From contig MNTU01000022.1 in assembly GCA_001917125.1 (NCBI GenBank), positions 1-26,894 of the forward strand: DNA of 26,894 bases, in the 5' to 3' direction. Of this stretch, positions 12,648 through 23,954 are shown in pieces. Numbering within the stretch: position 1 is the first letter of the stretch; each line of letters begins with the position of its first letter. This stretch comes from Azospirillum sp. 47_25 (GTDB lineage: Bacteria > Pseudomonadota > Alphaproteobacteria > RF32 > CAG-239). Under the pieces are notes generated by a model. That model ran no database searches and was not told where the DNA came from. It was given only the letters and a program-made list of their open reading frames with translations. The translations under genes and the position numbers were made by a program.

Positions 12648-13814
12648 ATGACCCCTCTCGGAAAATTAACCCTTGCCGTCATCGGCCTCCGCTTGTTCGG
12701 CGCCGCCGGTTTCTTATGGGGCATGTTCTTCGGCCATGTCCTGATTGACCGAACCTTGGTAAAAACCATTATCAAGCAGAAGTTCAGCCAACTTGACGAC
12801 ACCATCCGTCTGATGCTTCCTTTCCGTTTTTACCGCTCTTATAACTATCTGATTGAACATGTGCTGGGCAAACTCTGGGGCGTTATTCTCGGCGGACTGA
12901 CTTTCGGCTGGGTCGGCGTCGCGGTTCTCGGTATTCTCGGACATCTGTTGTTTGACTGCCAAAAATGCAAAAGTTGCAAAGAATGGCGCTACGCTTTTGA
13001 AGACTTTTGGAATGTCAACCTCGGCAAAATTTTCGGCGGTTTAATCGGCTTCACCTGCAAAAGCAAACTTCTGCTGTTCATCGGCGTTATTCTCGGTTTC
13101 TTTTTTGACTCTTTTCGTTTGGAAGGCGGGCTCCGCACCAAACTCAAACTCGGCCCTGTTCTCAACTTCTGGTCTAAAATCAATCCGCTGAAACTGGCTC
13201 TGCGCTCACAGGAAGCCCGCGATGTTTCCTTCGTGCAGTCAATGGCCGGCTTAGCGGCAAAAATATCCAAAGCCGACGGCGCCGTCAGCGAAAACGAAAT
13301 CCGCACCTTTAAAAAACTGTTCAACACCGACAAAAATCCCAAAATCGCCCGCATTTTTAACGAAGCCAAACAAAGCACCGCCGGTTATCAGGCTTACGCG
13401 AAACAGCTGAAAATTCTCTCCCGCGATAATCTGGACATGAAAGAAAGCATTATCGAAAATCTGTTTAAAATTGCCGTGGTGGACGGTGAGATTTTAAGCG
13501 ATGAGATGGAAATGCTGGAAGATATCGCCAATATCATCGAACTTCCGCAGGGCAACTATACCATCATCAAAGACCGTTTTGTCTTCAAACCCTCAAACGA
13601 AACGCTTCAGGATTACTACGAAGTCCTCGGCGTCTTTTACAATGCCAGCGACAAAGAAATCAAACGCCGTTGGAAAGAGTTAATCAACCAATATCATCCT
13701 GACCTGGCTCAGGCCAAAGGCGCCTCCGCCCGGGAAATTGAAGCCTGCACTCTGAAAATGGCGGAAATCAACAACGCCTACGAACATATCATTAAAAGCC
13801 GCCAGGCCGGATAG
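12648..13814 (+). CDS. DjlA-like membrane co-chaperone with TerB and J domains
   Basis: A 388-residue protein. The C-terminus (about 321-383) is a J domain, DYYEVLGV to NAYEHI with HPD at 350-352, which stimulates DnaK-type ATPases. The middle (about 194-305) resembles TerB/DjlA helices, with KADGAVSENE and VVDGEILSDEME. The N-terminus holds three copies of a glycine-rich membrane motif at 4-34, 73-103 and 125-154, each starting LGK(L/I) and ending FFGHVLID, ILGHLLFD or ILGFFFD. E. coli DjlA has one such motif. After the second copy lies CQKCKSC (104-110), a CxxCxxC cluster that could bind metal. It is probably an inner-membrane protein with a cytoplasmic J domain and the first gene of a three-gene transcript. 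A weak GAGA site precedes the ATG. Confidence 0.82.
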   Translation: MTPLGKLTLAVIGLRLFGAAGFLWGMFFGHVLIDRTLVKTIIKQKFSQLDDTIRLMLPFRFYRSYNYLIEHVLGKLWGVILGGLTFGWVGVAVLGILGHLLFDCQKCKSCKEWRYAFEDFWNVNLGKIFGGLIGFTCKSKLLLFIGVILGFFFDSFRLEGGLRTKLKLGPVLNFWSKINPLKLALRSQEARDVSFVQSMAGLAAKISKADGAVSENEIRTFKKLFNTDKNPKIARIFNEAKQSTAGYQAYAKQLKILSRDNLDMKESIIENLFKIAVVDGEILSDEMEMLEDIANIIELPQGNYTIIKDRFVFKPSNETLQDYYEVLGVFYNASDKEIKRRWKELINQYHPDLAQAKGASAREIEACTLKMAEINNAYEHIIKSRQAG

Positions 13815-13825
13815 GATAATGATAA

Positions 13826-13975
13826 ATGTCACAAACAGCACCTGCAATAATCCTTTCAACGGTTGAAAGAGAAGATTGGAAATTTAACGAGGCAGATAAG
13901 GCTCGTTCTGCAGCGCGCAGAAGCGGAGCGTACATATTGGTACATGAGCATTCGAGCACGGGAGAACAACCTTAG
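13826..13975 (+). CDS. 49-codon reading frame: original radical SAM gene start interrupted by a palindromic element
   Basis: ATG at 13826 has AGGATAAT upstream, 12 bases after the djlA-like stop. The product begins MSQTAPAIILST and ends SSTGEQP. Its stop TAG abuts the ATG of the radical SAM gene, in the same frame. That gene begins MSVKSTIILST, so IILST occurs twice, encoded by the perfect 16-bp direct repeat CAATAATCCTTTCAAC (13845-13860 and 13992-14007). The simplest reading is that this is the native 5' end of the radical SAM gene, followed by an inserted element of 147 bp (49 codons) that supplied a stop, a new GGAG site and a new ATG. It may still be translated as a short coupled leader peptide. 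Independent function is unsupported. Confidence 0.5.
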   Translation: MSQTAPAIILSTVEREDWKFNEADKARSAARRSGAYILVHEHSSTGEQP

Positions 13976-14007
13976 ATGTCCGTTAAAAGTACAATAATCC
14001 TTTCAAC
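13845..14007. repeat. 16-bp direct repeats framing palindromic element A
   Basis: CAATAATCCTTTCAAC is present perfectly at 13845-13860 and 13992-14007, offset by 147 bases (49 codons). This fits a duplication made during insertion. The left copy also forms part of the 17-base palindrome CTTTCAACGGTTGAAAG (13853-13869). Confidence 0.75.
13883..13987. repeat. Palindromic in-frame repeat element, copy A
   Basis: Outer arms TTTAACGAGGCAGATAAGG (13883-13901) and CCTTAGATGTCCGTTAAA (13970-13987) pair imperfectly. Inside are GCTCG/CGAGC and TTCTGC/GCAGAA pairs. The core (13927-13948) reads AGCGTACATA, TTG, GTACATGAG, and matches copy B at 19 of 22 bases. GAGGCANATA on the left and TAGATGNCC on the right are also shared with copy B. 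The ATG in the right end is the present start codon of the radical SAM gene. Confidence 0.7.
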
Positions 14008-15340
14008 CATCAATGCCCGCTACTCGCACACCGCTTTCGGCCTGCGATATCTGAAAGCCAATCTGCATGAATTTGAAAAAGACTGTGAAATAATGGAATT
14101 CAGCCATGATCTCACGGTGCAGGAAGTTGCGGAGGCAATTATTTCCCGGCGGCCGGATGTTGTAGGCCTCAGCTGCTATATTTGGAATATTGAAGATCTG
14201 CTGCGGGTGGCCGAAATCATCAAAGCCGTTCTGCCGCAAACGCTGTTGATTTTCGGCGGACCGGAAGTTTCCTACGAATATGATGAATTTCTTCCCCGCT
14301 GCGACTATCTGATTAAAGGTGAAGGAGAATACGCGCTTTATCACCTGTTACAAGCATGGCAAAAAAACGAACTTCCCGCAACCAAAGTTCTGGAAGAACC
14401 GGTTTGCGACGTAAACAGTCTTAAGCTGCCTTATTACCTTTATTCCGACGAAGACATCGCCCACCGCCTGATTTACGTTGAAGCGACCCGAGGCTGTCCC
14501 TTTACCTGTGAATTCTGCCTGTCTTCGCTGTCTCGCGGCGTTCGGGAATTTGACCTCGACAAATTTCTGCACGAAATGGATATTTTAATCACCCGCGGCG
14601 TTAAACAGTTCAAATTCATTGACCGAACCTTCAATCTTAAATTCGCCAACGTCAAAAAAATCCTCGAATTTTTCAAAGCCCGCTGGCGGGAAGGAATGAT
14701 TCTGCATTTTGAAATTTTTCCTGACAAACTCAACTCACAAATGCTGGAAGAAATCAAAAACTTCCCCGCCGGCGGATTACACCTGGAAGCCGGCGTGCAA
14801 ACCTTTTACGAACCCTCATTAAAAGCGATTTCCCGCCGACAAAACGAAGGCCAAACCCTCGCCAACTTAAAATTTATCAGCGAGCAAACCGGTGCTGCCG
14901 TCCATGCCGACCTTGTCGCCGGACTGCCGCATTCCACTTTTGCCACGTTTGCCGAAGACTTCGACAAATTATTTGCCTCCCGTCCCGCCGAACTGCAAAT
15001 AGGCATTTTAAAACGCCTGCGCGGCGCCCCGATTGACCGTCATACACAGAATTTTCAAATGATTTATTCCCAATATCCGCCCTATGAAATTATGCAAACT
15101 TCAACCATGAGCTACGCCAAACTTCAGCAAATCAAACGCTTGGCTCGTTATTTTGACATTTTTTACAACGCGGGAAATTTCCGGAAAGAAACCGGCTGCC
15201 TGACGACTTTCGCTGACTGGCTGGACTTCAGCAATTACATCTGGACAAACTACCGCCAAACGCATAAAATATCCCTGAAACGTCAAGCTGAAATTTTAAA
15301 GGATTACCTTGATGCGCGAAGAGCCGCTGCCCTACTTTAA
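13976..15340 (+). CDS. B12-binding-domain radical SAM protein (DUF4080-like)
   Basis: A 454-residue protein. Residues about 5-140 form a Rossmann-like cobalamin-binding-type domain (VVGLSCYIWN, IFGGPEVS, CDYLIKGEGEYAL). The radical SAM core follows with RGCPFTCEFC, a CxxxCxxC cluster at Cys174, Cys178 and Cys181 that binds 4Fe-4S and SAM, then LHLEAGVQTF and ADLVAGLPHST strands. The C-terminal part resembles DUF4080. No DxHxxG motif is seen, so B12 binding may be base-on or absent. Substrate unknown. The present ATG is in the palindromic element and has GGGAGAAC about 11 bases upstream. The original start was probably 13826. It overlaps the amidase gene by 29 bases. Confidence 0.88.
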   Translation: MSVKSTIILSTINARYSHTAFGLRYLKANLHEFEKDCEIMEFSHDLTVQEVAEAIISRRPDVVGLSCYIWNIEDLLRVAEIIKAVLPQTLLIFGGPEVSYEYDEFLPRCDYLIKGEGEYALYHLLQAWQKNELPATKVLEEPVCDVNSLKLPYYLYSDEDIAHRLIYVEATRGCPFTCEFCLSSLSRGVREFDLDKFLHEMDILITRGVKQFKFIDRTFNLKFANVKKILEFFKARWREGMILHFEIFPDKLNSQMLEEIKNFPAGGLHLEAGVQTFYEPSLKAISRRQNEGQTLANLKFISEQTGAAVHADLVAGLPHSTFATFAEDFDKLFASRPAELQIGILKRLRGAPIDRHTQNFQMIYSQYPPYEIMQTSTMSYAKLQQIKRLARYFDIFYNAGNFRKETGCLTTFADWLDFSNYIWTNYRQTHKISLKRQAEILKDYLDARRAAALL

Positions 15341-18160: not shown

Positions 18161-18649
18161 ATGACTGATACAAAAATTAAACTCTCCATCCCCGAAATAC
18201 TGCTGCATTTGGTGCTGCTGGCAGGCGCTTTTTGGTTTTTTACCTCTATTCTGAGATTCGTCATCGGCGATAAAAACGATAAACAAATTTTGATAAACAT
18301 CATATTTTTCTTAGAAGTGACGCTGGCTTTCTATTTTATACCTCTCAAACACCCGCTGAAAACAAGTAAATTTGGTTTCACATTGACTGTACTGGGCAGC
18401 ATCTTAAATATATATATCATGATTTTTTCCGCATATCTCACAATAAATCTTGTAAAACCTCGCCCACATTATCCATACTTTGAATTCGTCTACAATTTAA
18501 TGCCCCTGTTATTATGTCTGCCTCTGCTCACTTACATATCCGGTTTTATTAACAAAAAACTTTTTTATACCCTGACCAAAATCATATTTACCAGTTTTAC
18601 CATGGCACTTCTTTTCTCTCTGGGATACCTCGTCAAGATATATCTATAA
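18161..18649 (+). CDS. Four-helix membrane protein, tandem copy 1
   Basis: A 162-residue hydrophobic protein of no recognised family, starting MTDTKIKLSIPEILLH. Hydrophobic stretches near 15-37, 46-62, 72-97, 110-126 and 135-158 suggest four or five membrane helices. Conserved blocks shared with copy 2 are FYFIPLKH, LLLCLPL and TY(I/L)SGFI(N/D)KK. It is AT-rich, unlike the housekeeping genes nearby, which suggests transfer. After its TAA the frame still reads YAALQNLNPHPRI before a second TAA; copy 2 has that tail as part of its protein. It lies head to head with the toxin-like gene. An immunity role is only a hypothesis. Confidence 0.7.
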   Translation: MTDTKIKLSIPEILLHLVLLAGAFWFFTSILRFVIGDKNDKQILINIIFFLEVTLAFYFIPLKHPLKTSKFGFTLTVLGSILNIYIMIFSAYLTINLVKPRPHYPYFEFVYNLMPLLLCLPLLTYISGFINKKLFYTLTKIIFTSFTMALLFSLGYLVKIYL

Positions 18650-18732: not shown

Positions 18733-19257
18733 ATGACTGATACAAAAATTAAACTCTCCATCCCCGAAATACTGATGCATTTAGGGTTGCTGACAGTCGT
18801 TTTTTGGCTCTTTGCTTGTTCCCTGAGTTTTTTCATCGAAACGGAAAATCCTCAAAATTTATTAATACTTTCCACCGAAGTAACCCTCACCTTTTATTTT
18901 ATACCTCTAAAACACACGCTGAAGCCCAATAAATTTTTGTTCGCATTTACTGTGCTATTCAGCACCTTAAATATATTTGTCGTTTTTATCTCCTTATTTC
19001 TTGCAATCCATAATATAACACCTTATCCGCATTCTCCATATGAAGAATGCTTATTTAATTCAATACCGCTTCTTTTATGTCTTCCCCTGTTCACTTATTT
19101 ATCCGGCTTTATTGATAAAAAACATTTTTATACTCTTGCCGCAATTATATTTACCAGTTCTATCTTAGCGTTTGCACTTTTTCTCTCTTTGGATTTCGAC
19201 TCAGAAACATATGAATACGCCGCCTTGCAAAGCCTTAATCCTCATCCCTGCATATAA
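18733..19257 (+). CDS. Four-helix membrane protein, tandem copy 2
   Basis: A 174-residue paralogue of the preceding gene, offset by 572 bases. The first 14 residues are identical (MTDTKIKLSIPEIL), and FYFIPLKH, SIPLLLCLPLFTYLSGF and IIFTS are shared. The middle has diverged: it lacks about six residues near 40-55 and carries YPHSPYEECLFN where copy 1 has YPYFEFVYN. Its C-terminus runs 12 residues longer, through YAALQSLNPHPCI. No ribosome site is visible; the start is set by the conserved N-terminus and the promoter. Function unknown. The duplicated, diverged pair beside a toxin-like gene is typical of immunity genes but also of other fast-evolving membrane proteins. Confidence 0.7.
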   Translation: MTDTKIKLSIPEILMHLGLLTVVFWLFACSLSFFIETENPQNLLILSTEVTLTFYFIPLKHTLKPNKFLFAFTVLFSTLNIFVVFISLFLAIHNITPYPHSPYEECLFNSIPLLLCLPLFTYLSGFIDKKHFYTLAAIIFTSSILAFALFLSLDFDSETYEYAALQSLNPHPCI

Positions 19258-22020: not shown

Positions 22021-22025
22021 CTTGT

Positions 22026-22149
22026 AAAAGCTCGAAGAATGAGGCATATAGTAAGAAATAAAGGCGGAAGTACCGCAGCGTACATAAACGTACATGAGGA
22101 AACTTCCGACCTGAAATTTCTGTACTAGATGACCATTATACGAGCTTTT
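22026..22149. repeat. Palindromic in-frame repeat element, copy B
   Basis: The ends AAAAGCTCG (22026-22034) and CGAGCTTTT (22141-22149) are exact inverted repeats. Further pairs run inward: TAGTA/TACTA, AGAAAT/ATTTCT and CGGAAGT/ACTTCCG, so the whole 124 bases can fold into one long imperfect hairpin. The core (22077-22098) reads AGCGTACATA, AAC, GTACATGAG, as in copy A. A frame from ATG 22039 encodes AAYINVHE and stops at TAG 22126, the same frame and conserved TAG as copy A. The right end touches the lepA stop codon. Confidence 0.7.
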
Positions 22150-23954
22150 TATTGGTCGCCGATGCGCAACGCCTCAATAAACGCCGACTGCGGCACCTCT
22201 ACCTTACCGAACTGACGCATCCGCTGCTTGCCTTTTTTCTGCTTATCCAAAAGCTTGCGTTTACGGGTCACGTCACCGCCGTAACATTTTGCCGTAACAT
22301 CCTTGCGCAGGGCTGAAATCGTTTCGCGGGCGACCACTCGTCCGCCGATAGCCGCCTGTATCGGAATTTTAAACAAATGCCGCGGAATCAAATCCTTGAG
22401 ACGTTCGCAAATTTGCCGGCCGCGGGATTCCGCTTCGCTGCGGTGGCACAGAAAAGCCAAAGCATCCACCGGCTCTTCGTTAATCAAAATCTGCACTTTA
22501 ACCAAATCAGAAGGATGATAGCCGACAAGCTCATAGTCAAAGCTGGCATAACCGCTGGTAATTGACTTCAGACGATCGTAAAAATCAAAAACGATTTCAT
22601 TCAGCGGAATTTTATAAACCACCATCGCCCGATTGCCGACATAAGTCAAATCTTCCTGCTCGCCGCGGCGCTCGGTGCAAAGTTTCAGCACCGCCCCCAA
22701 ATACTCGTCCGGCACCAGAATTGTCGCCTTAACCCAAGGTTCTTCAATACTGGCAATGGTTGACGGATCCGGCATATCGGCAGGATTATGCAGTGTAATT
22801 TGATTGCCGTTGCTCAAATTGATTTTATAGGCAACCGACGGTGCCGTCGTAATCAAATCCAAATCAAACTCGCGCCCCAGACGCTCCTGAATAATTTCCA
22901 TATGCAGCAAGCCCAAAAAGCCGCAACGGAACCCCAGCCCCAAAGCGGCGGAATTCTCGTTCTGATAGTCAATGCTGGCATCATTCAGTTTCAGCTTTGC
23001 CAATGCGTCTTTCAAATTGTCATACTGACTGCTGTCCACCGGAAAAATCGAACAGAACACCACCGGTATGGAAGGTTTAAACCCTTTCAGGGGCTCGGCG
23101 CAAGGCTGCCGGTTATCCGTAATCGTATCCCCGACGCTGCAGTCGCTGACACTTTTGATACTTGCGGTAATAAAACCGACTTCACCGGGATACAGAGCCT
23201 CAACATCTTGCATCTTCGGCGTAAAAATACCTACCTTGTCAATTGAATAAACAGCATTGTTAGACATCATGCGAATTTGCTGCTTTTTACGCAAAACGCC
23301 GTCTTTCACCCGCACCAGAATAATAACGCCCAGATAAGAATCATACCAGCTGTCAATCAGCAAAGCCTGTAAAGGTTTGTCGGCATCACCCTGCGGTGCC
23401 GGCAAATACTTGACAATGCTTTCCAGCAGCTCGGGCACGCCTAGCCCCGACTTGCCGGAAGTCTCAACCGCATTGGACGTATCCAGCCCGATAACATCTT
23501 CAATCTGTTTCTTAACCCGCTCCGCATCGGCCGACGGCAAATCAATTTTATTCAAAACAGGCAGAATTTCGTGATTATTATCAATCGCCATATAAACATT
23601 GGCCAGCGTCTGCGCTTCCACCCCCTGCGTGGCATCCACCACCAGAACCGACCCTTCGCAGGAAGACAGGGAACGCGAAACCTCATAAGAAAAGTCCACA
23701 TGTCCCGGAGTGTCTATCAGGTTAAGCTGATAGGTTTTGCCGTCCTGCGCCTTATAATTCAAACGCACGGTCTGCGCCTTAATGGTAATGCCCCTTTCCC
23801 GTTCTATGTCCATGGAATCCAAAATCTGATCCTGCATTTCGCGTTTCTGCAAACCGCCGCAGTATTCAATAATCCGGTCGGCCAAAGTGGACTTGCCGTG
23901 ATCAATATGGGCAATAATCGCAAAGTTTCTGATTAAATCCAAATTTGTGGTCAT
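22149..23954 (-). CDS. lepA: Elongation factor 4 (LepA)
   Basis: A 601-residue translational GTPase, normal LepA length. G motifs are AHIDHGKST (15-23), RGITI (54-58), DTPGHVDF (81-88) and NKID (near 135-138). The LepA-specific C-terminal region contains [20 protein letters not shown] and ends [23 protein letters not shown]. LepA acts on ribosomes during initiation, assembly or stress-stalled elongation. The start ATG follows a weak GAGA site. The gene ends directly at palindromic element B, which may also serve as its terminator. Confidence 0.98.

Follow-up and report, generated by a model that had tools for sequence, protein, structure and literature searches.

The B12-binding radical SAM gene with a DUF4080 domain in the window, by which we mean the whole stretch of 26,894 nucleotides analysed here, probably carries at about codon 12 a sense-oriented copy of a non-autonomous, MITE-like palindrome from a large alphaproteobacterial family related to the Rickettsia element RPE1, and translation would stop within this copy and restart directly behind it, with the element serving as the new leader and providing the new start of the gene. 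There is an insertion at this gene start, it belongs to a family of conserved and covarying hairpins, and kindred copies lie in frame in core genes. The features concerned are as follows.

12648 to 13814, plus strand: djlA-like gene directly 5′, with TerB and DnaJ domains (Pfam)
13826 to 13975, plus strand: 49-codon ORF (MSQTAPAIILST...STGEQP) and its TAG; the first 12 codons are the old gene start, orthologous to the start at four related loci (L001-L004)
13845 to 13860, plus strand: 16-bp direct repeat, first copy
13861 to 13991, plus strand: inserted segment, 131 bp between the repeat copies, missing from 15 of 15 related loci
13861 to 14008, plus strand: full palindrome, its right arm including the second repeat copy (fold -52.9 kcal/mol, z -6.95)
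13879 to 13990, plus strand: conserved palindromic element (covariance model R1, 103.9 bits, the window copy being among the 7 training sequences)
13925 to 13949, plus strand: core hairpin GGAGC-GTAC-ATATTG-GTAC-ATGAGC with a GGA/GA internal loop
13960 to 13964, plus strand: GGGAG, possible ribosome site judged from sequence only, 11 nt 5′ of ATG 13976
13973 to 13975, plus strand: TAG, where the element has its conserved TAG (present in 77 of 121 aligned copies)
13976 to 15340, plus strand: B12-binding radical SAM gene with DUF4080 domain from the downstream start, 454 aa; the 98% identical protein P0001 has the same start
13992 to 14007, plus strand: 16-bp direct repeat, second copy, encoding the gene's own IILST
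22031 to 22143, plus strand: second superfamily element, intergenic (R1, 47.8 bits, E 5.6e-12)

The insertion at the start of the radical SAM gene

The sequence CAATAATCCTTTCAAC forms a perfect 16-bp direct repeat (13845-13860 and 13992-14007, spacing 147 bp), and chance would give about 0.001 perfect 16-mers repeated within 200 nt at the composition of the window. Both copies encode IILST in one common frame. ATG 13826 opens a frame of 49 codons (MSQTAPAIILSTVERED...STGEQP) that ends at the TAG at 13973-13975, which is followed by ATG 13976. The repeat, its offset and shared frame, and the positions of the upstream ATG, the TAG and the downstream ATG, all of them part of the original prediction, were thus confirmed in the sequence. 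The upstream djlA-like gene scored 115.1 bits with the NCBIfam DjlA model, below its cutoff of 162.

Searches of 152 related genomes, including the six genomes of a first contig scan, gave 15 related loci at E <=1e-100. By eye, the end of the djlA-like gene overlaps the radical SAM start or precedes it by at most about 20 bases at all 15, and none of them (0/15) contains the inserted segment. In four of them, L001-L004 (81% identity), the protein starts with MSQ[AT][AS]PKIVLSTINAR and the DNA at the old start reads ATGTC[AG]CAA..., matching the upstream start of the window. As the segment is lacking at 15 of 15 loci and the starts in L001-L004 match, ATG 13826 predates the downstream start, and what separates the repeats was inserted. 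The predicted palindromic insertion, in frame and at a gene start, is therefore borne out, and the uninterrupted starts free of the segment that an alignment with relatives was expected to uncover are those of L001-L004. In a side observation, the radical SAM gene of L004 (L016) has one internal TGA, such that its frame ends after 237 aa; this is possibly a sequencing error or a pseudogene.

The upstream frame does not behave as a conserved gene, as the single match found for it bears the same element peptide, and a Pfam scan of the 49-codon ORF gave no match. The claim that the insertion breaks the gene holds for the insertion and not for the protein, which from ATG 13976 comprises 454 aa compared with 455 in L001-L003 and keeps the whole domain. 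Likewise, the intervening DNA is palindromic and supplies the TAG, the ATG and the GGGAG, although the limits given for the palindromic element need revision, the conserved part being 13879-13990. Folding of 13861-14008 produces an outer stem GGTTGAAAG/CTTTCAACC whose right arm is the downstream repeat copy, and the z-score is -6.95 for this stretch versus -2.59 for 13861-13991. Inverted, the gene's own CAAT...CTTTCAACC nearly equals the left arm, GGTTGAAAG...ATTG, indicating that gene sequence serves as the right arm of the outer palindrome.

The second element of the window, at 22031-22143, is flanked by a HAD-IA gene and lepA and differs in its outer part from the copy at 13879-13990; the fold of 22025-22150 has a z-score of -9.23. 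Elsewhere in the window, two small adjoining ORFs that look membrane-protein-like (18161-18649 and 18733-19257) are identical to one another in stretches at the start and close to the end, joined by 16-mer repeats at 18161-18187/18733-18759 and 18648/19214, and are probably a tandem gene duplication, judging by these stretches.

A family of covarying hairpins and its copies inside genes

When the segment was used in a BLAST search, 40 of 153 genomes from the related order had matches at E <=0.001, and the middle of the segment was also found in enterobacterial intergenic DNA, in the dnaN-recF gap and downstream of glnA. The core pattern GGAGCGTAC N3-9 GTACRTGAGSA was present in 49 of 152 related genomes, compared with 0 of 152 for the reversed control pattern. 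Alignment of seven copies, that of the window and six others, left 35 of 118 columns invariant and gave a consensus hairpin of 40 pairs, 19 of them with compensatory change. The covariance model R1, built from these seven copies with the window copy included, matched at E <=0.001 in 116 of the 152 genomes of the related alphaproteobacterial family, in a search with stricter filters and at most 25 candidates scored per genome. In 50 aligned R1 matches, an alignment that was fitted to R1 and hence leans towards the structure, 90.0% of the cells were paired versus 67.9% after shuffling, covariation reached 0.527 versus 0.158 (0 of 500 shuffles as high), and 35 of the 40 pairs had changed on both sides, while structures slid by 1-3 columns left 28-45% paired. 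The GA-type internal loops are the conserved parts of the element and the stems vary; a conserved G-U pair is among the RNA-type covarying pairs. For the outer arms, copy-specific complementarity was 6.78 of 12 versus 5.52 when shuffled, some of which is accounted for by tandem arrays.

Short, dispersed and multi-copy (116/152 genomes), with inverted arms and no transposase gene, the element has the characters of a MITE. Outside the alphaproteobacterial family its occurrence is patchy, with a looser pattern in 9 of 289 sampled genomes of the class and the control in 2. No match was obtained in viral contigs for either of two exact patterns, nor in the 152 genomes for the left-end pattern with up to three mismatches, and an Rfam search of 13500-14400 returned a chance-level snoRNA match alone (17.4 bits versus 60).

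The event had been called unusual, and it is not a one-off, since kindred copies occur inside and at the starts of other genes. In the core-pattern set, limited to copies with 450 nt of flanking sequence on each side, open frames of 130 codons or more contain 9 of the 93 copies. A higher-scoring set from the top of the R1 list comprised 121 aligned copies from 92 sources, of which 87 have 300 nt or more of sequence on either side. Open frames of 150 codons or more span 33 of these 87 (19 sense, 14 antisense), counts that are not of independent events, the in-gene copies being partly kin, and that include frames which are probable non-genes or leader-only (L184, L191, L208, L153, L231). Copies in truA are placed just 5′ of GAGRTDAGVHA (L155, L157-L159, L167 and L176; L158 is above the NCBIfam truA cutoff and the rest were named by eye), and eight are at the start of hemW (L049, L168, L179, L187, L188, L201, L202 and L207; L202 above the hemW cutoff, the rest by eye). 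Antisense copies occur within hemW (L205, L206 and L213, the gene named by eye) and uvrC (L164 by Pfam, L165 and L177 by eye), and further copies in the iron-hydrogenase large subunit (L193 by Pfam, L194 by eye). For copy L058, ftsY was the best match yet below its cutoff, because the contig ends inside a second element copy. Several in-gene copies are tandem, and the Pfam domains UvrC RNase H and Fe-hydrogenase were each matched in two stretches, in one carrier each.

Comparison of the truA region, covering 30 of 138 truA loci, revealed several states of the insert: G100 (L263) has none, G004 and G003 (L241, L242) have the right-end element peptide alone, G001 and G002 have one full copy plus the right end, and G132 has two copies. 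The remnant in L241/L242, which are from two close relatives, looks as if the remainder had been lost between direct repeats. The loci L011 and L012 are arrays, and for this reason there is no clean empty site for their elements. We also observed, by eye, in-frame copies at the ends of or inside flotillin-like, ParA-like and MutL-like genes in G308. We infer that coding DNA can accommodate the family because reading frames running through the element are often open.

With regard to the route of entry, G308 (0.9 Mb) contains 85 core-pattern matches, and its related units measure 141-145 bp with the ends GG[AG]CCTCTTTC/GAAAGAGGTCC. Four complete copies there (11 loci, L130-L140) have 3-bp duplications (ATT, ACA, TAT and AGT), compared with the 16-bp direct repeat of the window, and L059, L067, L068 and L080 have no target duplication by eye. 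Candidate routes are insertion guided by homology, synthesis by fold-back, and a transposition event whose duplication is unusual. In P0121, a 68-aa ORF on a 740-bp contig, the peptide is the same from LSTVERED on but is preceded by another N-terminus, which matched Pfam MmgE_PrpD_N weakly (E 0.15); the P0121 host gene was found in 0 of 128 related genomes in a search run without a positive control, and P0121 may come from another organism or from a misjoined contig. A protein search for longer fusions to the element peptide gave none at E <=10.

Stop codon, proposed restart and competing explanations

At the position of the window's TAG, the 121 aligned copies have TAG in 77 cases and CAG in 27. 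Sense copies in long open frames have CAG in 18 of 19, the one TAG being that of L191, whose frame lies ahead of a dehydrogenase-like gene; antisense copies in open frames have TAG in 11 of 14, and copies outside long open frames have TAG in 44 and CAG in 5 of 54, a contrast that is partly built in by the filter, as an in-frame TAG copy cannot sit in a long open frame. Since an in-frame TAG closes the frame, the contrast is expected from selection or from filtering and is no independent proof. It does show that the TAG is part of the element and is missing from copies that are translated through. The window copy, a sense copy, retains the TAG and has ATG directly after it. ATG is found at the next position in 24 of the 121 copies, TAG plus ATG in 16, and TAG plus ATG, GTG or TTG in 30; among non-enterobacterial copies whose right side is complete, 19 of 110 have TAGRTG 3′ of the core, versus 3 of 113 and 5 of 111 control stretches. 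The idea that TAG-ATG is a general reset module is weakened by its presence in 16 of 121 copies, which makes it recurrent but not universal.

Ribosomes starting at 13826 would end at the TAG after 49 codons. Restart would then take place at the adjoining ATG 13976, aided by the stop-start adjacency and GGGAG, or initiation could occur directly from GGGAG. A leader ORF of 49 codons followed by reinitiation would be the result, and the enzyme would be essentially full-length, with the element and its hairpin becoming the 5′ leader of the gene and supplying its new start. From the reading frames, stop and restart likely yield essentially full-length enzyme. Were the TAG read as sense, a 50-residue extension would arise, as in hemW of several relatives.

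P0001 (98% identical; 997 member sequences listed) starts with MSVKST, exactly as the downstream ORF does, and P0002-P0008 (85-89% identity) start with M[ST][VAD][NK]C.I[IV]LATINAR and begin just as far from the domain as the downstream ORF. The tree places the window and P0001 together with P0002-P0006 (support 88/92), and the neighbouring forks relative to L001-L004, P0007 and P0008 are not settled. The M[ST][VAD][NK]C starts of P0002-P0008 are close to the ATGTCCGTTAAA end of the element, and going by them the start shift may be older than the window lineage. Either the insertion is old and these starts are element-derived, or it is recent and the likeness is due to chance; a recent insertion is favoured by the perfect 16-bp repeat, and an old one by the start common to the window and P0002-P0008. 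An insertion ancestral to the clade of the window and P0001-P0008, with M[ST]V/A-K/N-C/S derived from the element and the 16-bp identity kept or restored by exchange between copies, is the same explanation with a different age, and we regard it as quite possible, if short of probable: the nearness of the P0002-P0008 starts to the ATGTCCGTTAAA end and the grouping with P0002-P0006 (88/92) speak for it, but after so much divergence one would not expect the repeat to be still perfect over 16 bp in upstream DNA free of constraint.

Other explanations depart further from a mobile element that has reset the gene start. The hairpin might act at the RNA level as a regulator in the 5′ leader, the split ORF being incidental, in keeping with the strong RNA-type covariation including the conserved G-U pair and with the location of 54 of 87 copies, or 84 of 93 in the broader core-pattern set, outside long open frames. 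We nevertheless consider this unlikely in view of the in-frame copies within truA, uvrC and hemW and the lack of an Rfam match at 13500-14400, and much the same pairs would be expected from single-stranded DNA. Metagenome misassembly, in which a repeat copy was misjoined into the gene start, would fit with the tendency of dispersed repeats to break assemblies and with P0121, which joins the same peptide to another N-terminus on a 740-bp contig; it is very improbable, as P0001 on a different contig starts at the element-derived ATG, the repeat keeps the frame and the flanks are in order. Finally, the two start-like copies in one frame could be read as a tandem duplication of the gene start by slippage, with no mobile element involved, yet elements dispersed over unrelated loci share homology with the 112-bp middle, which contradicts this reading and makes it hardly credible.

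Relation to RPE1, ERIC and other palindromic repeats

Rickettsia palindromic elements are characterized, in the excerpted account of PMC10969869 (citing Ogata et al. 2000), as sequences of about 150 bp located in frame in unrelated protein genes. The family described here resembles RPE1 in that palindromes lie in frame in unrelated alphaproteobacterial protein genes and some of the peptides exceed the RPE1 cutoff (NCBIfam TIGR01045, curated at 30 bits). A hemW carrier with three tandem copies scored 62.8 bits, a G308 copy 43.5 and the ftsY carrier 30.0, and truA (19.7) and a truA piece (20.8) were below the cutoff. The window peptide gave 13.2 bits (E 0.064, residues 29-46 on model positions 16-33, in the same register), also below it, and five further peptides, two of them in-frame sense peptides, gave no match (an Fe-hydrogenase piece, a second hemW start, antisense pieces of hemW and uvrC, and P0121). 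A six-frame RPE1 search had matches at E <=0.001 in 14 of 152 genomes and over the cutoff in 1 of 152, with controls at 0 of 14. By their peptides, part of the members are thus recognisably RPE1-like, and the window copy is tied to RPE1 through other copies. The comparison with RPE1 was made at the level of the peptide profile. Whereas in-frame insertion into protein genes, as known for the Rickettsia elements, is found in the family at large, the window copy is in frame but has the TAG. Unlike RPE1, the window copy brings a stop and then an ATG at a gene start, and the family is used in frame on both strands and in tandem.

Among the relatives outside the family are the enterobacterial dnaN-recF/glnA repeats, whose core is 84-86% identical over about 49 bp and which match R1 over its full length (E 2e-11 to 1.3e-10); unlike the window element, they are intergenic where observed and have other ends. 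In L008/L009 (Klebsiella, Salmonella record), the dnaN-recF element at about 2473-2578 is likewise a full-length R1 match. A 115-bp Salmonella repeat family, Sal-1, is mentioned in PMC2267715. ERIC/RU-1 and other repeats have been reported as fusions to ORFs (Delihas 2007, PMC2759123, excerpted text), and as excerpted there ERIC/RU-1 resembles the window element as a MITE-like palindrome of about 127 bp with the core GGAGC-stem-loop-stem-GTGA (GGAGC...ATGA in the window). A 515-kb Salmonella record contains the ERIC core GGAGCNTAC..GTANGTGA seven times and the control not once, and the copies include TTAC/GTAA as well as GTAC/GTAC stems. Unlike our element, four ERIC-type loci (L087, L113, L115 and L118) had no R1 match at E <=1; L117, which is ERIC-like with a GTAC stem, matched R1 at E 0.0024.

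YPAL/RU-2 and RU-3 are also small palindromic repeats fused to ORFs, but by eye the RU-2 and RU-3 sequences printed in the excerpted PMC2759123 do not have the GGAGCGTAC core. The Coxiella elements QMITE1/2 are MITEs that overlap ORFs, at times in frame, and differ from the window element in size and ends; according to the excerpt of PMC5896051, none affects the 5′ end of genes of known function. BoxC/triplex repeats were rejected on the motif CCCTCNCCC...GAGGG printed in the excerpt of PMC4666352, and integron attC sites were dropped since by eye the end boxes do not hold across copies. A literature search over titles and abstract starts, with few subscription papers, covered RPE, ERIC, YPAL and other MITEs and found nothing on the element outside Rickettsia, and searches with core fragments as letters returned unrelated papers alone. 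The literature searched yielded no account of the spread in these alphaproteobacteria, of the tandem and two-strand use or of the stop-restart at a gene start.

We put forward, tentatively and with less conviction than an ancestral insertion, that the window element, RPE1, the enterobacterial dnaN-recF/glnA repeats and ERIC are branches of a single proteobacterial superfamily whose defining feature is a strand-specific hairpin with GA-type internal loops that is recognised in trans. In alphaproteobacteria it might act as an exon-like module, inserted in frame into core genes on either strand and expanding or contracting in tandem, and copies with TAG-ATG might reset the start of their host gene. 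In-frame selfish palindromes are best known from Rickettsia, and the present copies form a much larger natural collection, which includes empty sites, remnants and tandem arrays and is linked to RPE1 by its peptides and to enterobacterial repeats by its structure. With this collection, the tolerance of conserved proteins to hairpin DNA, the loss of the element's stop codon, a common origin of RPE and ERIC, and the replacement of a gene's translation start by a mobile element all become testable.
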